From: Luteimonas wenzhouensis
GTDB taxonomy: Bacteria; Pseudomonadota; Gammaproteobacteria; Xanthomonadales; Xanthomonadaceae
Direction: 5' to 3'
NCBI RefSeq assembly: GCF_007859305.1
Contig: NZ_VOHE01000005.1
Span: forward strand, 62,001-126,000
Length of the DNA stretch: 64,000 bases
Shown: positions 53,109 through 62,103 of the stretch, piece after piece
How the letters are laid out: each line of letters opens with the position of its first letter
Position numbering within the stretch: position 1 is the first letter of the stretch
The notes under the pieces: model-generated
The model's database searches: none
Seen by the model: the letters and a program-made list of their open reading frames with translations, nothing else
Told to the model about the DNA's origin: nothing
Made by a program: the position numbers and the translations under genes

Positions 53109-56100
53109 GCGCGTCCGACCCGTACCTGGCCCAGCCGCTCGAAGGCGTGTTCGCCATCGAGGCCTCGGCCGGCACCGGCAAGACCTTCACCCTCGCCACC
53201 CTGCTCGCGCGCCTGGTCATCGAGCGTGGCCTGGGCGTGGACGGGATCCTCGCGGTCACCTTCACCGAGGCCGCCACCCAGGAGCTGCGCGCCCGCGTGC
53301 GCCGGCGGCTGCTGCTGGCGGCCGAACTCGCCGCCGGCAACGAGTGTCCGGGCGCCGATGACGCGCCGCTGATGCGCCGGCTGATCGACGCGCACCTCGC
53401 CCGCGGCACCGAAACGCCGGCCGCGCTGCGCCGGCGCCTGCGCCAGGCCGCCGACGGCATCGACCTCGCGGCGATCTCCACCATCCACGGCTTCTGCCTG
53501 CGGGTGCTGCGCGAGCATCCGCTCGAAAGCGGGCAGGGCTTCGACCCGCCCGAACTGCTCGCCAGCGACTCGGAACTGCGCGCGGCCATCGCCGCCGACC
53601 TGTGGCGTGCCCATGCGCGCGACGTGGCCGCGGTCGAGGACCTGCACGCGCTGTGGCCGCAGGGCCCCGATGCGCTGGCCGCGGATCTTGCCCTGCTCAC
53701 CGGCGAGCCGGTGCTGCGGCCGCCGCCGCCCGCGGACCTGCCCGATCCCGGCCCGATGCTGCAGGCCGCGCAGCAGGCCTTCGCCGAAGCCGCGCGCACG
53801 CATGGCGACGCGTTCCGCGACGAGCTGCTGCGCGCGGTCGAGGGCAAGGTGCTGCACGGCGGCAGCTACCGGGCGGACTGGATCCAGGACCTGTTCGACC
53901 AGCTGCGCCGCTGGTGCAGCGGCGTGCCGGACGCTCCGTTCGAGCATGGCAAGCTCGGCCAGCTGCACCGCGACACGCTGCGCCTGCGCACCAGCAAGGC
54001 CGGCGCCGGGCGCACGCCCGACTCGCCGCTGTGCGATGCGGTCGAGGCCTACGCCCATGCGCTGGCCGAGGCGGGGCGCATGACCGGCGCGCGCCGCGTC
54101 GCGCTGCTGCACCGCGTCCGCGAAGACGCCCGCCGCCGGCTGGAGGCCCACAAGCGGCAGGCGCGGGTGCTCACCTACGACGACCTGATCGCGCGCGTCG
54201 CCGACGCGCTCGACGGCCCGCACGCCGACGCGCTGGTCGCGCGGCTGCGCGCGCAGTACCGCGTCGCCCTGGTCGACGAGTTCCAGGACACCGATCCGCG
54301 CCAGTGGCGGATCTTCCACCGCACCTTCGGCGCCGCCAGCCCGGAGCCGGCGCTGTTCCTGGTGGGCGATCCGAAGCAGGCGATCTACCGCTTCCGCGGC
54401 GGCGACGTCGAGACCTACCTCGACGCCGTCGCCACCGCGCAGGAGGCGCCGCCGCTGGCGCACAACTTCCGCTCGCGGCCCTGCGTGCTGCAGGGCATCG
54501 AGGCGCTGTACGCGCAGGCGCAGGCGGTGCACGAGGCGGACGCCGACAAGGTGCCGCCGCCCTTCATCGACGGCCGCATCCGCTTCCATCCGGTGCAGCC
54601 GGGCGGCAAGCGCGACGATGCCGCGTATCTGCGCAATGGCGCGCCGGCGCCGGCGGTGACGTTGTGGCGGGCACCGTTGCCGACCGAGGTGGACCGCAGC
54701 GGCAAACTCAAGCCGCACAGCGCGCCGGCGTCGCGCGAACTCGCCACCCGGGCCTGCGTCGCCGCGATCCATTCGGTCCTGCGCGACGCGCGCGAGGGCC
54801 GCGCGACGATCGGCGACCGTCCGGTCCAGCCCGGCGACATCGCGGTGCTGGTCCGCACCCACCGCGAAGCCACGCGCATGCGCGACGCGCTGGCCGCGGC
54901 CGGCATCCCGGCCGTCGCCGCCGGCCGCCAGAGCCTGTTCGCCACGCCCGAGGCGCACGAGCTGCACACCCTGCTGCAGGCGCTGGTGCACGGCGCCGAC
55001 GACCAGCGCCTGCGCGCGGCGCTCGCCACGGTGCTGCTGGGCCACGACGCGCACGCGATCGCCGCGCTCGCCCGGGGCGAGGCCCTGCAGCGCTGGCAGC
55101 TCGAGGCGCTGGGCTGGCGCGAACGCCTGCAGCGCGGCGGTCCGCTGGCGCTGGTCGGCGAACTGTGCGCGCAGGCCGCGCGGCGCCTGCTCGGCCTGGC
55201 CGACGGCGAACGCCGCCTCACCAACTACCTGCAGCTGGCCGAACACCTGCAGGAGGCGCAGCGCACCACGCTCGGCCTGCACGGGCTGCTCGACTGGCTG
55301 GCGCGCGCGATCGCCGGCGCCAGCGCCGACGACGAGGCGCAGCAGCTGCGCCTGGAGTCGGACGCGCGCCGGGTGCAGATCGTCACCCTGCACAAGAGCA
55401 AGGGCCTGGAGTACCCGCTGGTGTTCCTGCCGTACGCAGGCATCGGCGCACGCGCGCCGAGCCCGGGCCGCCGGGTCGTCGTCCACGACGGGCACGGCCG
55501 CACCCTGCACTGGAAGCTGCAGGAGGAAGCGAGCGGATGGGAACGGGCCTGCGAGGCCTGGCTGCAGGGCGAGCGCGCCGAGAACGCGCGCCTGCTCTAC
55601 GTCGGCCTCACCCGCGCCCGCGACGCGCTATGGCTGGCGACGGGCCTGTTCTACAACCATGCGCAGTCGCCGCTGTGGACCATGGTGTCCGACCTCGACG
55701 CGCTTGTTGCGCGCGCGCCAGACGCCATCGCCATCGATGCCGCGCCGCCGCCTGCGCAGCTGCCCTGGCTGGGCGCCGACGAAATGGACGACGTCCCCCC
55801 CGCGCGCGCGCCAAAGCGCCCGCTCGCCAGCGACTGGTGGGTCTACAGCTTCACCCAGCTGGCCAACGCCGACGCCGGCCACGACCTGTCCAGCGCCGCC
55901 ACCCAGCCCGCCCCGGGCGGCCGCGACGAGCCCGATCCGGACCCCGACGCCGCGCCCACCGACGCTACCGACACCGACACCGATATCGACGTCGACCCGC
56001 GCTTCGGCGGCACGCGCTTCGGTGTGGTGCTGCACGAAGTCTTCGAACATGCCGACTTCGCCGCCTGGCAGGGCTGGCACGCCGGCGACGACGCACCCGC

Positions 56101-56908
56101 AGGCGAACGCCGCAAGATCACCGAGGCCCTGGGCAAGGGCGGCTATGCGGCCGCAGACATCGATGACGGCGTGGCCCTGATCGTGCCCATGGTCGGCCAC
56201 ACCCTCAATACCCGCCTGCCCGAAGGCACCACCCTCGCGGCCGTGCCCGACGCGCACCGCCGCCCGGAGATCGAATTCCAGTTCGCCCTCGCCCCCACCC
56301 GCGTCGACGCGCTGCTGTCCCTGTTGCACCGCCACGGCCTGCTCACCGGCCGTCAGGGCTTCGGCCTGCGCCGCCGGCTGGAAGGCCTGATGACCGGCCT
56401 GATCGACCTCACCTACCTGCACGACGGCCGCTGGTACGTCCTCGACTGGAAATCCAACCGCCTGCCCGGCTACGCCCCCGCGCAGCTGCAAGACGCCATG
56501 GCCCACAACGAATACCACCTGCAGGCGTTGCTCTACACCCTCGCCCTGCACCGCTGGCTCCGCTTCCGGCTGGGCGAGGCCTACGACTACGCCCGTGACT
56601 TCGGCGGTGTCCGCTACCTCTTCTGCCGCGGCATCGACGCCACCCGCAACGATGGCCAGGGCATCCACGCCTGGCGCTTCGACCCGGACCTCGTCCACGC
56701 CTTGGACGCCCTGTTCGCCGGCGACTCCACGCGCTCCCACGCGGGTGGCCAAGGATCCGGACACGCGCCACCGGAGCCTGCCGGATGCGCTCCTTCCTCC
56801 GACCCCGGTGAAGGGCCGGGGCCGCAGACGCCGAATCCCGCCGGATCCGCTCCCTCCCCCGCCAGCGGGGGAGGGCCGGGGTGGGGGCCGCCGGAGCCGA
56901 CCAAATGA
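53105..56908 (+). CDS. recB: exodeoxyribonuclease V, beta subunit (helicase-nuclease)
   Basis: The 1267-residue enzyme unwinds DNA 3' to 5' and cuts it. Walker A is ASAGTGKT at residues 20-27, FHRTF follows VALVDEFQDTDPRQW (Walker B), and VTLHKSKGLEYPLVFLP and LLYVGLTRARDALWL are late helicase motifs. The nuclease triad is D1101, D1114 and K1116 (IDLTYLHDG and VLDWKSNR), with the same spacing as E. coli D1067/D1080/K1082. The C-terminal tail of about 60 residues is Pro/Gly/Ser-rich and derives from one degenerate and one good copy of the GC-rich repeat (56782-56889). The start codon overlaps the recC stop and the end overlaps recD. Confidence 0.97.
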   Translation: MSASDPYLAQPLEGVFAIEASAGTGKTFTLATLLARLVIERGLGVDGILAVTFTEAATQELRARVRRRLLLAAELAAGNECPGADDAPLMRRLIDAHLARGTETPAALRRRLRQAADGIDLAAISTIHGFCLRVLREHPLESGQGFDPPELLASDSELRAAIAADLWRAHARDVAAVEDLHALWPQGPDALAADLALLTGEPVLRPPPPADLPDPGPMLQAAQQAFAEAARTHGDAFRDELLRAVEGKVLHGGSYRADWIQDLFDQLRRWCSGVPDAPFEHGKLGQLHRDTLRLRTSKAGAGRTPDSPLCDAVEAYAHALAEAGRMTGARRVALLHRVREDARRRLEAHKRQARVLTYDDLIARVADALDGPHADALVARLRAQYRVALVDEFQDTDPRQWRIFHRTFGAASPEPALFLVGDPKQAIYRFRGGDVETYLDAVATAQEAPPLAHNFRSRPCVLQGIEALYAQAQAVHEADADKVPPPFIDGRIRFHPVQPGGKRDDAAYLRNGAPAPAVTLWRAPLPTEVDRSGKLKPHSAPASRELATRACVAAIHSVLRDAREGRATIGDRPVQPGDIAVLVRTHREATRMRDALAAAGIPAVAAGRQSLFATPEAHELHTLLQALVHGADDQRLRAALATVLLGHDAHAIAALARGEALQRWQLEALGWRERLQRGGPLALVGELCAQAARRLLGLADGERRLTNYLQLAEHLQEAQRTTLGLHGLLDWLARAIAGASADDEAQQLRLESDARRVQIVTLHKSKGLEYPLVFLPYAGIGARAPSPGRRVVVHDGHGRTLHWKLQEEASGWERACEAWLQGERAENARLLYVGLTRARDALWLATGLFYNHAQSPLWTMVSDLDALVARAPDAIAIDAAPPPAQLPWLGADEMDDVPPARAPKRPLASDWWVYSFTQLANADAGHDLSSAATQPAPGGRDEPDPDPDAAPTDATDTDTDIDVDPRFGGTRFGVVLHEVFEHADFAAWQGWHAGDDAPAGERRKITEALGKGGYAAADIDDGVALIVPMVGHTLNTRLPEGTTLAAVPDAHRRPEIEFQFALAPTRVDALLSLLHRHGLLTGRQGFGLRRRLEGLMTGLIDLTYLHDGRWYVLDWKSNRLPGYAPAQLQDAMAHNEYHLQALLYTLALHRWLRFRLGEAYDYARDFGGVRYLFCRGIDATRNDGQGIHAWRFDPDLVHALDALFAGDSTRSHAGGQGSGHAPPEPAGCAPSSDPGEGPGPQTPNPAGSAPSPASGGGPGWGPPEPTK
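56782..56889. repeat. GC-rich hairpin repeat forming the recB C-terminal codons
   Basis: Two copies in tandem: a degenerate one (about 56782-56822) and a clear short-form one (56851-56889: CCTCCCCCGC, GCGGGGGAGG, GGGGTGGGGG). Both are translated as the RecB tail, which explains its odd composition. The recD start follows 15 bases later. Confidence 0.7.
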
Positions 56909-58875
56909 CCCTCCTCAGTACCCTCCACCGAAGCGGCCACCTCCGCACCCTCGACCACGCTCTGGCCGAAAGCCTGCGCCGCCTCGACCCGGACACCCCC
57001 GACGCCGTCCTCGCCGCCGCCGCCCTGGCCTCGCTGGCCGTTGCCGCAGGCCACGCCGGCTTCGATCCCGCGCAGCCGCAACAGCTGGTCGACGCCCCGA
57101 TCGACTGGCCCTCGCACGAGACCTGGCACCAGGCGCTGGCCTCCTCGCGCTGGGTCGCCCGCCCCGACGCCGGCGACACCGAATCCCCCGCCGACGCGCC
57201 CCTCGTCCTCGAACACGGCCTGCTCTACCTGCGCCGCTACCGCGAGTACGAGCGCCGCCTGGCCTCCGGCCTGCGCCGCATCGGCGACAGCGCCCCCGCC
57301 GCACCTCTTCCCCCGCCTGCGGGGGAAGATGCCCGAAGGGCAGATGGGGGCCCGCCCGCGCCTCCTGCCGGCGACGAAGCCGCCCAGGTCCCCACCCCCC
57401 TGGCCAACCTCTTCGCCCAGCTCTTCCCCCAGGCCGCGACCGGCGGCGACCTCCAGGCCCAGGCCGCCGCCGCCGCGCTCCACCACCACCTGCTGCTGGT
57501 CACCGGCGGCCCCGGCACCGGCAAGACCACCACCATCACCCGCATGCTGGTGCTGCTGGTCGCGCAGGCGCTGCAGGCCGGCGGCGCGCCCCCGCGCATC
57601 GCCCTGGCCGCGCCCACCGGCCGCGCCGCCGAACGCATGGCCGAGAGCGTGCGAAACGCCGTGCAGACCCTGTCCGCGCTCGGCATCGACCCCGCGCTCG
57701 CATCCCACCTGCCCACCACCGGCACCACCCTGCACCGCCTGCTCGGCACCATCCCCGACCGCCCGGACTTCCGCCACCACGCCGACAACCCGCTGCCCTT
57801 CGACGTGGTGGTGGTCGACGAAGCCTCGATGATCGACCTGCCGCTGATGGCCAAGCTGGTCGAAGCCGTCCCCGACGGCGCCCGCCTGGTCCTCCTCGGC
57901 GACCCGGACCAGCTGCCTTCTGTGGAAGCAGGCGACGTCCTGGCCGGCATCCTCGCCGCTGCATCCAATCCGCGCGCCACATCCGACACCTCCCCCGCTC
58001 GCGGGGGAGGTCGCGCCGAAGGCGCGGGTGGGGGTGCTCTCCGACCAGCTGCCCATGCCCCCACCTTCCCCGTCCGCCACATCCACCTCGCCCGCGGCTA
58101 CCGCCAGAGCGCCGCCCTCGACGTGGCTCCCCTCGCCACCGCCGTCCGCAGCGGCGACGCCGACCGCGCACTGGCACTCCTGCGCAGCGGCCAGCTCTCC
58201 GGCGTCCATTTCCACGAAGGCGACACCGACCCCCTGCAGTCCCACCGCGACCACCTGCTCGCCCACTGGACCGCGCTTGCCGACACGACCGACCCGGCCG
58301 AAGCGCTCGCCCGCGCCAACCGTCTGCGCATCCTCACCGCCGTACGCGAAGGCCCCCAAGGCGCCCGCAGCCTCAATGCCCGTATCGAAGAACTGCTCGC
58401 CGGTACCCGACGCGGCGCCGGCCCGGCCTCGGCCGCCGGCCGCTACTTCCACGGCCGCCTGTTGCTGATCACCGAAAACAGCTACCGCCACCGTCTGTTC
58501 AACGGCGACATCGGCATCTGCCTGCGAAGCGAAGCGGGCACCGCGGCGCATGACGACAGCGGCAGCCTGATGGCTTGGTTCCCCGGCGACGACCCGCACA
58601 ACCCGCGCCCCTTCCACCCCGCCGCGCTCCCCGCCCACGACAGCGCCTTCGCCATGACCGTGCATAAGGCGCAGGGCTCGGAGTTCGGGGAGGTGTGGCT
58701 GGTGCTGCCGGAGCGTCCCAACCGCGTCCTGTCGCGGGAGCTGGTGTACACCGGCCTCACCCGCGCCCGCGATGCGCTCCACCTGCATGCGTCTGCGGCG
58801 ATCCTCAAGGACGCCCTGGCCCGTCACGCGACACGCTGGTCCGGGCTGAGGCAGCGGTTGTCCCTGGGCGCTTGA
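56905..58875 (+). CDS. recD: exodeoxyribonuclease V, alpha subunit (helicase)
   Basis: The 656-residue 5'-to-3' helicase of RecBCD has Walker A GGPGTGKTTT (residues about 201-210), AAPTGRAAERM, VVVDEASMIDLPLM (Walker B), LLGDPDQLPSVEAGDVL, MTVHKAQGSEF and LVYTGLTRARDALHL. The ATG overlaps the recB stop. Two in-frame insertions interrupt the family layout: residues about 135-149 (LPPPAGEDARRADGG) and about 362-377 (SPARGGGRAEGAGGG). Both are encoded by complete double-hairpin repeats, and both lie in loops outside the helicase motifs, so the enzyme may tolerate them. Confidence 0.96.
   Translation: MTLLSTLHRSGHLRTLDHALAESLRRLDPDTPDAVLAAAALASLAVAAGHAGFDPAQPQQLVDAPIDWPSHETWHQALASSRWVARPDAGDTESPADAPLVLEHGLLYLRRYREYERRLASGLRRIGDSAPAAPLPPPAGEDARRADGGPPAPPAGDEAAQVPTPLANLFAQLFPQAATGGDLQAQAAAAALHHHLLLVTGGPGTGKTTTITRMLVLLVAQALQAGGAPPRIALAAPTGRAAERMAESVRNAVQTLSALGIDPALASHLPTTGTTLHRLLGTIPDRPDFRHHADNPLPFDVVVVDEASMIDLPLMAKLVEAVPDGARLVLLGDPDQLPSVEAGDVLAGILAAASNPRATSDTSPARGGGRAEGAGGGALRPAAHAPTFPVRHIHLARGYRQSAALDVAPLATAVRSGDADRALALLRSGQLSGVHFHEGDTDPLQSHRDHLLAHWTALADTTDPAEALARANRLRILTAVREGPQGARSLNARIEELLAGTRRGAGPASAAGRYFHGRLLLITENSYRHRLFNGDIGICLRSEAGTAAHDDSGSLMAWFPGDDPHNPRPFHPAALPAHDSAFAMTVHKAQGSEFGEVWLVLPERPNRVLSRELVYTGLTRARDALHLHASAAILKDALARHATRWSGLRQRLSLGA
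57307..57350. repeat. double-hairpin repeat inside recD (copy 1)
   Basis: CTTCCCCCGC, CT, GCGGGGGAAG, then a small hairpin GCCC-GAA-GGGC, then TGGGGG. This is the long form also present between nrdA and nrdB, and it is translated in frame in the RecD N-terminal region. Confidence 0.8.
57989..58034. repeat. double-hairpin repeat inside recD (copy 2)
   Basis: CCTCCCCCGC, TC, GCGGGGGAGG, then a second hairpin CGCGCC-GAA-GGCGCG, then GGTGGGGG. Same architecture as copy 1 but with a different second stem, showing that base-pairing rather than sequence is kept. Translated as a Gly/Ala/Arg-rich loop. Confidence 0.8.
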
Positions 58876-58878
58876 GAA

Positions 58879-59000
58879 AAATCTAATTTGTGATTTAGAT
58901 TTCGGGAGGTGTCGACCGCTCGGGGCGAAATCTAAAATCCAATTTGGAAATCGCTTGATTCAGTCATTCCGCCCAAATAATCTAATTAGAACTTTAGATT
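58879..59000. promoter_or_regulatory. array of three dyads AAATCTAA-N8-TTAGATTT (operator-like)
   Basis: Site 1 is AAATCTAA at 58879-58886 and TTAGATTT at 58895-58902. Site 3 is AATCTAA at 58979-58985 and TTAGATT at 58994-59000. Both have exactly eight bases between arms. Site 2 has AAATCTAA at 58928-58935 and, after eight bases, the degenerate TTGGAAAT. The block is strikingly AT-rich in a GC-rich genome and lies between two convergent genes (recD and the NERD-helicase). Equal spacing and repeated half-sites point to a sequence-specific DNA-binding protein, phage or plasmid repressor operators, or a mobile-element remnant. No gene was found that it obviously controls. Confidence 0.6.
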
Positions 59001-59135
59001 GTTGGGGTGTTTGAACGCCAACAGCCTGAAGTTCCGGGACGCCGATTTCGATTGAGCCGCGAATGGGCATGACCACGCGCCGCCACCAGGACAGTGGCGC
59101 GCATTTCGGCAAGATCGTGCGCCTTCTTGCGTGTT

Positions 59136-61010
59136 TCAGGCAGCCAGCCGTCGCGACACGCCTTCCACCACGCGCCGGATCTGCTCCACCACTGCACCCT
59201 CCCCATGGTGCGACATCTCCAGCTGCCGCAGCGCTCGCGTCATGGCGACATAGAGCGCCCGCACCTGCTGCTGCTTCCGCCCGGCATCCTCGTCGTGGCT
59301 TGCAAGCTCGCAGACGCCGGGAATGAACACCGTGTCGAACTCCAGCCCCTTGCTTGAGTGCATGGTCATCACCTTGACCGAGGGTGGGCCGTTGAACATG
59401 GCGCGGCGCTGGCTGTCCGACGCCAGCAGCACGGCCAGGCCGCGCTTCTGCAGCTGCTTGGCGATCAGTCCGGCCAGCTGGTTGGAGTGGCACAGCACGG
59501 CGAAGTCGTTGGGACTGGCGCCGTTGGCGGTCGCGTCCTGGATGCGTTCGGCGATGATGTCCGCCTCGGCCCAGATGTTGCGCGCACGCCACAGTTCCGG
59601 CATCGGGCCGCGCCGGCCGGCGCTCTCGGGGGCGACCACGGGCACGTGGTCGTCGTCGGCGTCCTGGCCGGTCAGCACTTCCTCGGCGAAGGCCTTGGCG
59701 ACGGCCAGAACTTCCAGGGTGTTGCGGTAGTTCAGGCGCAGGATGGTGGTGCGGCCCTGGGCCTGGATGCCGACGCTGGCGAAGGAGAATCTGCGGCGGC
59801 CGGGGCCGCCGTACAGGCTCTGGGCGTCGTCGTAGAGCAGCAGCAGCGAATTCGTCTCAGGGTCCACCATCTGGGCCACGAGGCGCAGCCACTCGGGGGC
59901 GAAGTCGTGGCCTTCGTCGATCAGCACCGCACCGTACTGACCGCGCGGGATGGCGCTGGACTCCACGCCGTCGATCATCGACTGCACCAGCAGCTGGGCA
60001 TACGCGTCCGCGCTGTCCTGCCGCGGCGGCATGCGCAGGCCGTAGCTCTTGAGCTGTTCGCGACACCATTCGTGGAAGTTGCGCACGGCCACGCGGTCCT
60101 GCACGCCGTGCCCCTGCATGAGGTGCTCGAGCCGGCTGGCCAGCGTCTTGTTGTAGCAAAGCACCAGCACCGGCTTGTGCTGGCGGCGGGCCAGTTCCAC
60201 GCAGCGGTAGCCGAGGATCATGGTCTTGCCGGAGCCGGCGACGCCGTGGATCACGCGGTGGCCGTCGCCCAGCGAACGGGCGAGCTGCTCCTGTTGCAGG
60301 TCCATCACCCGGATGATGTCGGGAATCCCGACCGGCGCCGCTTCGTCCCTGGCCGGCGCCGCCAGCAGGTCGCCCTGCACCTGGATGCGCAGCTGCGGAA
60401 ACAGATGCCAGCGCACGCGCTCGATCTGCGGCAGGCTGAGCAGGCAGGGGAAGGGCATCAGGAACATGTCCCACAGCCGCTTCTGGAACTCCTCGGTGTC
60501 CACGCCCTCGGTCATCTCGTCGCGGCAGATCACACTGCCAGGGGGCAGGAAGTGCTCCAGCTCCATCAGCTCGAACTGGCTGCGGGTGATGCCAGTCAGC
60601 ACCACGCCGAAACCCCACGGCATCAACAACTTGCCGGCGCGCTTGTCTCCCGGGGGATGGCACAGCGCCGGGTCCTGCTGCAGCAGGCGGACAATCTCCA
60701 TCGCGTACTCGCGCGCCTGCCGCAGCGGGTTGGGCGCGGTGACGCGCCCGCGGTCGGTGTCGATGACGGCGCGGTCGCGATCGAGTTCGGCCAGGGTCTC
60801 CGCCTTCCAGTCCTTGACCTCGAGCACCAGGAAGCCGCGCGACGGATGCAGCACCACGAAGTCGGGGTGCCGGTAGCGCGGGCCGATCGGCACGTCGTAC
60901 CAGCACAGATACTCGTCGTCGAGCTTGTCGTCCAGGCGCGCGGAGAAGCGTCGTTCACCCGGCGTCATGCGCGACAGACAACTGCCGCGGTTCGGAATCA
61001 GCGTGGCCAT
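59136..61010 (-). CDS. NERD-domain UvrD-like helicase/nuclease
   Basis: The 624-residue protein starts with a NERD nuclease-related domain (about residues 20-75: HPDFVVLHPSRGFLVLEVKDWK, with the Asp and Glu-x-Lys of the restriction-like fold). A superfamily 1 helicase follows, with Walker A VAGSGKT (Lys 262), YGAVLIDEGHDF, LRLNYRNT and VMTMHSSKGLEFDTVFIPG. Such fusions are predicted DNA-processing enzymes, often found in defence or accessory islands. ATG at 61010 has GGGGAG five bases upstream on the minus strand. That start lies inside the 3' end of the truncated effector gene. The gene converges on recD across the AT-rich dyad array. Confidence 0.9.
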   Translation of the reverse strand: MATLIPNRGSCLSRMTPGERRFSARLDDKLDDEYLCWYDVPIGPRYRHPDFVVLHPSRGFLVLEVKDWKAETLAELDRDRAVIDTDRGRVTAPNPLRQAREYAMEIVRLLQQDPALCHPPGDKRAGKLLMPWGFGVVLTGITRSQFELMELEHFLPPGSVICRDEMTEGVDTEEFQKRLWDMFLMPFPCLLSLPQIERVRWHLFPQLRIQVQGDLLAAPARDEAAPVGIPDIIRVMDLQQEQLARSLGDGHRVIHGVAGSGKTMILGYRCVELARRQHKPVLVLCYNKTLASRLEHLMQGHGVQDRVAVRNFHEWCREQLKSYGLRMPPRQDSADAYAQLLVQSMIDGVESSAIPRGQYGAVLIDEGHDFAPEWLRLVAQMVDPETNSLLLLYDDAQSLYGGPGRRRFSFASVGIQAQGRTTILRLNYRNTLEVLAVAKAFAEEVLTGQDADDDHVPVVAPESAGRRGPMPELWRARNIWAEADIIAERIQDATANGASPNDFAVLCHSNQLAGLIAKQLQKRGLAVLLASDSQRRAMFNGPPSVKVMTMHSSKGLEFDTVFIPGVCELASHDEDAGRKQQQVRALYVAMTRALRQLEMSHHGEGAVVEQIRRVVEGVSRRLAA

Positions 61011-61518
61011 CGGACTCCCCGAGCCATGGGACACCGGTGCCGAAGTTACCCCAAACCGATGGGGAAGCGACGTTCCGCGGCAATCTGGCTGGAGGCAGCG
61101 GCAGCGGCAGCGAGCGACCGAGCTGCTGGCAGGGTCTGCCGTACGGTGCCCACCGCGTCCCGAATGTCTTGCCGGCAGCATCAAGCGCCTCGCATTCCTG
61201 AGCGCACGCGGCTGACGTTTCGTACTCGTCCGGTGCAAACTCCAATGCACGGTCGGGTTGCGTCGCCGCCCAGGCCTGGTAGTGGTCGAGCAGGTCGCGG
61301 GCCACCGCGGGATGCTGTCCGAGATCGACCTGCATCGTGCCGAACGAATAGCCACTGTTGGCCACCGGCCGCATACGGCCGTCCGGACCCACGTTACCGG
61401 CGAAGCTCAAGCGATAGGCAAGGTCGCGGCCGGCGATGCTCCCTTCCGAGGCCACACCCACGGCGAAGTAGGCCGCCGCTTGCAGCTCGTTCTCGGTCAG
61501 GGGATTTGCGTTGGTCAT
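60955..61518 (-). CDS. truncated lysozyme-like effector (X-Tfe-like)
   Basis: The frame gives 187 residues. The first about 115 (NELQAAAYFAVGVASEGSIAGRDLAYRLSFAGN and SGYSFGTMQVDLGQHPAVARDLLDHYQAWA) resemble the lysozyme-like peptidoglycan hydrolase domain of Xanthomonadales type IV secretion effectors, with a candidate catalytic Glu in ASEGS. From about residue 125 the sequence (TFGTRWAPYGRPCQQLG and onward) loses family character. The C-terminal XVIPCD secretion domain is missing, and the frame runs 56 bases into the helicase gene. It is best read as a 3'-truncated or frameshifted effector. Its upstream neighbour is a lipoprotein of the immunity type. Confidence 0.6.
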   Translation of the reverse strand: MTNANPLTENELQAAAYFAVGVASEGSIAGRDLAYRLSFAGNVGPDGRMRPVANSGYSFGTMQVDLGQHPAVARDLLDHYQAWAATQPDRALEFAPDEYETSAACAQECEALDAAGKTFGTRWAPYGRPCQQLGRSLPLPLPPARLPRNVASPSVWGNFGTGVPWLGESDGHADSEPRQLSVAHDAG

Positions 61519-61545
61519 GATCCATTTCCTTATGGGTCAGATCCG

Positions 61546-62103
61546 TCATGGCGCGTCGGACAGGCACTCCCGTACCCATGGCTCTGCCCGCAGCGCTTCC
61601 CACTCGCTTCGTAACGTGGGCGCCTGCTCGAAATCGGCGATACATGCGCCGTTTGCGCCTGCAAGATCGCCAAGCTTGCCGTTGCACAACAGCAGTGGCT
61701 TGTCGACGTGTTGCCATCCGCTGCCGCATTCGGTGTCGGTCTCCGAACCCGGACGGCCGCACACGTGGGTGCGTCGCGCTTCAGTCGAAGACGTGGCCCG
61801 CGCAACGACCCTGCCCTCGTACGATTCTCCGGAGGCGACGTAGGACCAGGTACCGCAGATCCGATCGCCTTGTTGTACCAGCACGTAGCGACTGCATTCC
61901 CCGGGCGAGGGCGCGTCCTCGCATGACTGCCAGACGCCGGTAAAGGTTCCGGCAGGTGAGGTTGCCCAGGTTTGCTCTCGGACCGAAATCGCCCACGGAC
62001 TTCCGTCCCTATCCGCGGGCGACGCGCGTCCGCCATCAGGCAATGCACCCGACCCGGCGCATGCTGCCAGCCCCAACCACGCCACCATCCCTAGTGTTCG
62101 CAT
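61546..62103 (-). CDS. Cys-rich lipoprotein, likely immunity protein to the lysozyme-like effector (X-Tfi-like)
   Basis: The 185-residue protein has a signal peptide with lipobox (MRTLGMVAWLGLAAC) and eight further cysteines in the mature part (WQSCED, GECSRY, RICGTW, THVCGR, TECGS, LLLCNG, GACIAD, VRECL), pointing to a disulfide-stabilised periplasmic domain. GGAGGG precedes the ATG on the minus strand. It ends 27 bases before the effector-like gene on the same strand, the immunity-then-effector order seen for Xanthomonas X-Tfi/X-Tfe pairs. These lipoproteins block peptidoglycan hydrolases in the periplasm. The assignment rests on context and export features, not on a recognised fold. Confidence 0.7.
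   Translation of the reverse strand: MRTLGMVAWLGLAACAGSGALPDGGRASPADRDGSPWAISVREQTWATSPAGTFTGVWQSCEDAPSPGECSRYVLVQQGDRICGTWSYVASGESYEGRVVARATSSTEARRTHVCGRPGSETDTECGSGWQHVDKPLLLCNGKLGDLAGANGACIADFEQAPTLRSEWEALRAEPWVRECLSDAP

Follow-up and report, generated by a model that had tools for sequence, protein, structure and literature searches.

A three-dyad array beside recD in Luteimonas wenzhouensis is very probably the orphaned operator of a lost hipBA toxin-antitoxin operon

Within the window, i.e. the whole 64,000-nucleotide stretch of Luteimonas wenzhouensis DNA analysed here, recD and an open frame for a NERD-UvrD helicase converge on a short block that carries three spaced dyads, O1 to O3. 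The features of the region, including those proposed below on comparative grounds, are as follows.

56881-58875, plus strand: recD (exodeoxyribonuclease V alpha; NCBIfam TIGR01447, E 7.9e-161)
58879-58902, no strand assigned: O1, AATCTAA-N8-TTAGATT, perfect (14/14)
58928-58951, no strand assigned: O2, degenerate dyad (11/14)
58955-58983, plus strand: inferred old hipBA promoter (TTGATT, 17-base spacer, TAATCT), from alignment with 12 relatives
58978-59001, no strand assigned: O3, perfect (14/14), proximal to the expected hipB start, the orientation being taken from G003
59002-59135, no strand assigned: putative scar
59080-59119, plus strand: probable 3'-terminal remnant of a gene for a zinc-binding dehydrogenase (RHQDSGAHFGKIV in the window, RHQESGRHFGKIV in G029)
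59136-61355, minus strand: convergent open frame with the NERD-UvrD helicase (Pfam NERD and UvrD_C)

The short form of the dyads is ATCTAA-N8-TTAGAT and the extended, 14-base form AATCTAA-N8-TTAGATT. O1 begins three bases beyond the recD stop codon (58873-58875); the cores of O1, O2 and O3 start at 58881, 58930 and 58980, i.e. at spacings of 49 and 50 bp, and the spacer within each is 8 bases. Compared with the pattern AAATCTAA-N8-TTAGATTT, O1 has no mismatches, O2 has three and O3 has two. Our results agree with the first-pass annotation in that the middle dyad is degenerate (10/12 core bases), whereas of the other two, which it describes as near-perfect, O1 is perfect and O3 has two mismatches, both on the outermost bases. 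In the block, which it calls strikingly AT-rich, the GC content falls to 0.500 (58800-58999) and 0.520 (58900-59099) against 0.605-0.780 in the other 200-base intervals of 56000-61999.

The three dyads are real by statistical measures. None of 100 dinucleotide-preserving shuffles gave a dyad match, and a scan of the whole genome to which the window belongs (G000; 3,443,522 bases in 20 contigs) at up to 3 mismatches returned O1, O2 and O3 only, the reversed control pattern giving no matches in the same scan. A collection-wide search for the exact dyad, which matched at least 117 stretches, was set aside, because the matches listed came, by their titles, mostly from what we take to be AT-rich organisms. 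The first-pass annotation would have abandoned its site had the motif occurred at chance frequency with no conservation in relatives; with only O1 to O3 in 3.44 Mb the motif is far above chance, and it recurs in relatives, so that neither ground applies. Conservation at the recD locus itself is narrower. A recD match was obtained in 50 of 52 genus genomes, and in the downstream stretches scanned an array directly after recD is present in three, namely the window's own genome, that of its near twin (G002), and G003.

The helicase of the NERD-UvrD frame probably has its true start near residue 116 of the frame, the point from which it matches C3a187, a candidate defence protein in PADLOC (E 1.4e-170), and an orthologous stretch (89.6% over 396 aa) is also found downstream of recD in G027. 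When four open frames of the window were searched against PHROGs, the NERD helicase and RecD fell into helicase or nucleotide-metabolism-type families and the other two had no match, which lends no support to the suggested phage or plasmid immunity region; nor does a partition or replication-control site find support, the neighbours identified being recD and the NERD helicase, with no Rep or Par gene seen adjoining. Additional truncated copies of the RecD C terminus were seen near recD in three other genomes (G028:C46, G067:C78 and G032:C24), and look as if a mobile element had inserted at the recD 3' end.

Comparison with relatives reveals where such dyads normally stand. At no more than one mismatch, AATCTAA-N8-TTAGATT occurs in 7 of 52 genus genomes, and in four of these (G003, G029, G031 and G035) the dyads run straight into a small helix-turn-helix (HTH) gene that is followed by a HipA gene; the remaining three (G000, G002 and G067) have no HipB with the recognition helix termed SHV. 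The HipA proteins of G029 and G003 match HipA_C and Couple_hipA, that of G003 also matching solved HipA chains (e.g. 4pu3, E 2.2e-40). The HTH proteins of G029 and G031 match TIGR03070 (couple_hipB) below its cut-off, and for that of G426, from another genus, the PDB match is Legionella HipB (8ezt, E 5.1e-8). HipB matches at E ≤0.001 were found at 27 places in 17 of the 52 genus genomes, the four strongest being those of G003, G029, G031 and G035. In these four alone of the 27 loci does the HipB frame encode a helix of the SHV type; loci in G025 (C1) and G030 (C7) are of the type termed SENFL, and the other 21 are of neither type. Dyads thus lie upstream of hipB-hipA in every genus genome with an SHV-type HipB (n = 4), and in other genera of the family as well. 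Three dyads at 49-51 bp intervals are present in the four intact operons, in the window and G002, and in G067, their weakest members having 8/12 core bases.

The HipB search gave no match in G000 or G002, and G000 has a single HipA_C match, on contig C14, which is paired with a different HTH protein and lacks the array. Another hipBA of G002 (L155) is preceded by a weak pair of sites, which was rejected as being a different sequence. The array of G067 (L143:4880-5003) is a second three-dyad array with no HipB-type gene found beside it; its last dyad shares bases with the end of a frame that matches ParE_toxin (E 6.1e-5), and the HipB match of that genome is weak (E 1.2e-5) and lies elsewhere. 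A tblastn search of plasmids with the G029 HipB returned two weak Delftia matches.

The recD neighbourhood provides a partial parallel. The first dyad of G003 overlaps the stop codon of recD, with hipBA next; in G426 about 420 bp separate recD from the hipB start downstream. Judged by RecD tails, G003 (74% identity) is not the nearest relative, other genus members having 66-81%, and the adjacency to recD in G003 and in the window may therefore reflect separate events.

To relate operator to regulator we used a family set in which 31 of 395 genomes had a HipB match at E 1e-8, 30 being made into loci; by recognition helix 15 of these are SHV, 8 SENFL and 7 others, with L316 (from G416) counted as SHV despite a broken hipB, and L324, which has no helix match, counted among the others. 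An array was scored where at least two dyads, each matching 10/14 bases, lay 48-52 bp apart upstream of hipB. AATCTAA-N8 arrays were found at 12/15 SHV loci, 0/8 SENFL loci and 0/7 others, and AATCCTT-N8 arrays at 0/15, 8/8 and 0/7, respectively, counts that are descriptive and not independent tests, since the motifs were derived from the same loci. The three SHV-type loci below the threshold (L306, L308 and L316) count against a strict association. With spacers of 6, 7, 9 and 10 bases, AATCTAA gave 2, 5, 1 and 1 of the 15 SHV loci, and AATCCTT gave 0, 0, 6 and 0 of the 8 SENFL loci. Six of eight scrambled half-sites gave zero everywhere, and the other two, which have most of their bases in common with the real half-site, gave 5/15 and 9/15. 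At the 11/14 level, a step of 50 bp accounts for 18 of the 20 distances between successive AATCTAA dyads and for 11 of the 18 between successive AATCCTT dyads, with five more of the latter at 49 or 51 bp. The AATCCTT-N8-AAGGATT arrays, also of about 50-bp register, represent a second operator class, seen at L304, L307, L309, L311-L314 and L317. Within this family, the type of HipB helix goes with the half-site class, and a simple specificity rule is suggested, in which an SHV helix corresponds to AATCTAA and a SENFL helix to AATCCTT, both with an 8-base spacer and a register of about 50 bp.

Alignment of the window with 12 SHV-type loci (L303, L305 and L316 being left out) also suggests a promoter. 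A TTG lies at -25 or -27 from the core of the proximal dyad in 12 of the 13 arrays, the exception being L299, where it lies at -22; those with TTG at -27 would require a 19-base spacer for the same -10. In the window the candidate -10 (TAATCT) lies over the left arm of O3. A consensus promoter scan gave a different site (58872-58901) and did not report 58955-58983, and the hipBA promoter, together with any activity it has or once had, is thus proposed from the alignment. In relatives with an intact operon, the two to four AATCTAA-N8-TTAGATT dyads, about 50 bp apart, would be occupied by dimers of HipB, by themselves or together with HipA, and because the hipB-proximal dyad would cover the -10 box, the operon would repress itself.

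The 134 bp to the right of the array (59002-59135) yielded no hipB or hipA remnant in tblastn or profile searches. The segment at 59080-59119 resembles the 3' end of the G029 zinc-binding dehydrogenase gene (40 bp, 82.5%, E 4.1e-5 against the loci compared), of which a protein search found no match in G000. Matches to the dehydrogenase tail (at least 79%) lie in the same direction about 6-11 kb downstream of recD in G016, G017, G027 and G029, and on contigs other than that of recD in G003 and G033. The open frame is short in G027 (88 aa) and G033 (69 aa), so that these copies may be broken; in G029 the dehydrogenase gene is placed before the hipBA operator, not after hipBA. The combination of a probable dehydrogenase remnant with no detectable hip remnant gives the block the look of a deletion scar. 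The case for a former hipBA at this place is accordingly built on the comparison with G002 and G003 and on the identity of the array.

Other genomes display apparent intermediates of such a loss. The exact core dyad is found in 21 of 395 family genomes. In nine it adjoins an open hipB (G003, G029, G031, G035, G097, G284, G317, G380 and G399) and in four, of genus g37, hipB fragments (G092, L345; G345, L347; G354, L344; G409, L342); three carry an array for which no hip gene was found (G000, G002 and G067), four a single dyad for which none was found (G188, G281, G283 and G391), and the remaining one, G138, is marginal. Fragments of HipA are also present in G354 and G409, with profile support for G354; the HipA C-terminal remnant in G138 (E 0.0048) was not taken as a case of decay. 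G416, outside the 21, combines one weaker dyad with a hipB that is broken. The proximal dyad is perfect in all four fragment loci, as it is in the window, which makes a gene-less array a plausible end point; the g37 loci differ from the window in still carrying hip fragments. At the single-dyad loci of G188 (L338) and G283 (L339), the perfect palindrome spans all 20 bases; the locus of G281 is L340.

On the overall results, a hipBA type II toxin-antitoxin operon very probably stood downstream of recD at one time and was later deleted, leaving the block as its operator-promoter. The hipBA genes would have been lost at the site of O1 to O3 and the array left behind; with the genes gone and no cognate HipB found in the genome, it is probably unbound and may well be functionless. 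The pattern of a cooperative operator, the lack of a gene beside it and the possibility of a relic, all raised in the first-pass annotation, are supported, the last as most likely, and an undescribed regulator need not be invoked, since in relatives matching arrays precede antitoxin genes of the HipB family, so that a named and testable regulator takes its place.

An array of hipBA origin might instead have been kept for a function, either because transcription from an open promoter toward the NERD helicase gene yields a small or antisense RNA, or because the sites repress or titrate an incoming hipBA. The perfect O1 and O3, the survival of a promoter-like arrangement and the further gene-less array of G067 would all fit such a role, which we nevertheless consider improbable: no HipB to bind the array was found in G000, and between G000 and G002 the dyad block differs at 1 of 123 bases (at O2, 58935 A to G), within the range of recB, recD and the NERD gene (0.6-1.1%), which gives no sign of constraint, this being a weak test of low power by which selection is neither shown nor excluded. 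It is similarly doubtful that orphan HipB operators are in general kept as still active elements, with the window and G002, G067 and the decaying g37 copies having converged on that state.

That the dyads serve another regulator of G000, unrelated to hipBA, could be argued from the lack of a matching HipB in this genome and from the single dyads of the four genomes with no hip gene, which are also a counter-point to a hipBA origin. Half-sites, 8-base spacer and register of about 50 bp, however, are all those of hipB promoters, it would be unusual for a living regulator with genes of its own to lack a second site, and the hipBA-type operon on C14 has no array; this possibility is very remote. 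A bidirectional terminator would suit the position between convergent genes and arms that can form hairpins, but no terminator-like site was found at 58800-59300; chance is excluded by the shuffles and the genome scan, and the occurrence of the same arrays upstream of genes in relatives speaks against both, leaving them next to no credibility. We thus prefer the reading of an orphaned hipBA operator. On that reading, the array is a genetic fossil that also illustrates how hipBA switches are built in related bacteria, and it offers a signature for recognising dead toxin-antitoxin loci whose genes are no longer visible.

With respect to what has been described, topic searches of open literature (main texts) found no account of the AATCTAA half-site class or its register of about 50 bp, and none that joins 'orphan operator' with toxin-antitoxin; the matches listed for Stenotrophomonas, Xanthomonadaceae and Lysobacter included no hipBA work, and those for solitary, remnant or decoy toxin-antitoxin operators were unrelated, as judged by titles and the beginnings of abstracts. 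In E. coli, HipB binds four TATCC-N8-GGATA sites cooperatively (PMC3376134, PMC3920265), two of which are 28 bp apart as counted from the printed O1O2 oligonucleotide (PMC3376134). The window resembles these operators in its short inverted half-sites, 8-base spacer and several copies, which in E. coli lie in the promoter region, and differs in its half-site (AATCTAA instead of TATCC), its spacing (about 50 bp versus 28 bp) and its lack of hipBA genes. As the half-site varies with the type of HipB, the absence of TATCC excludes the E. coli subtype and not the kind. In Caulobacter, the hipBA1 and hipBA2 promoters are each reported to have three palindromic sites proposed as HipB targets (PMC8545095, PMC7029023); the number of sites is the feature shared with the window, whereas the genes are intact. 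The closest counterparts are the SHV-type promoters of G003, G029, G031, G035, G426, G317 and others, which share with the window half-sites, 8-base spacer, register and inferred promoter position, but keep open hipB and hipA genes downstream. A place directly upstream of hipB is thus found in the relatives and not in the window, and hipB and hipA of SHV type were not found in G000; the window array is, by its design and its relatives, best classed as HipB-operator-like and not as a hipBA system, and its half-site class and register as a probable variant of the HipB operators.
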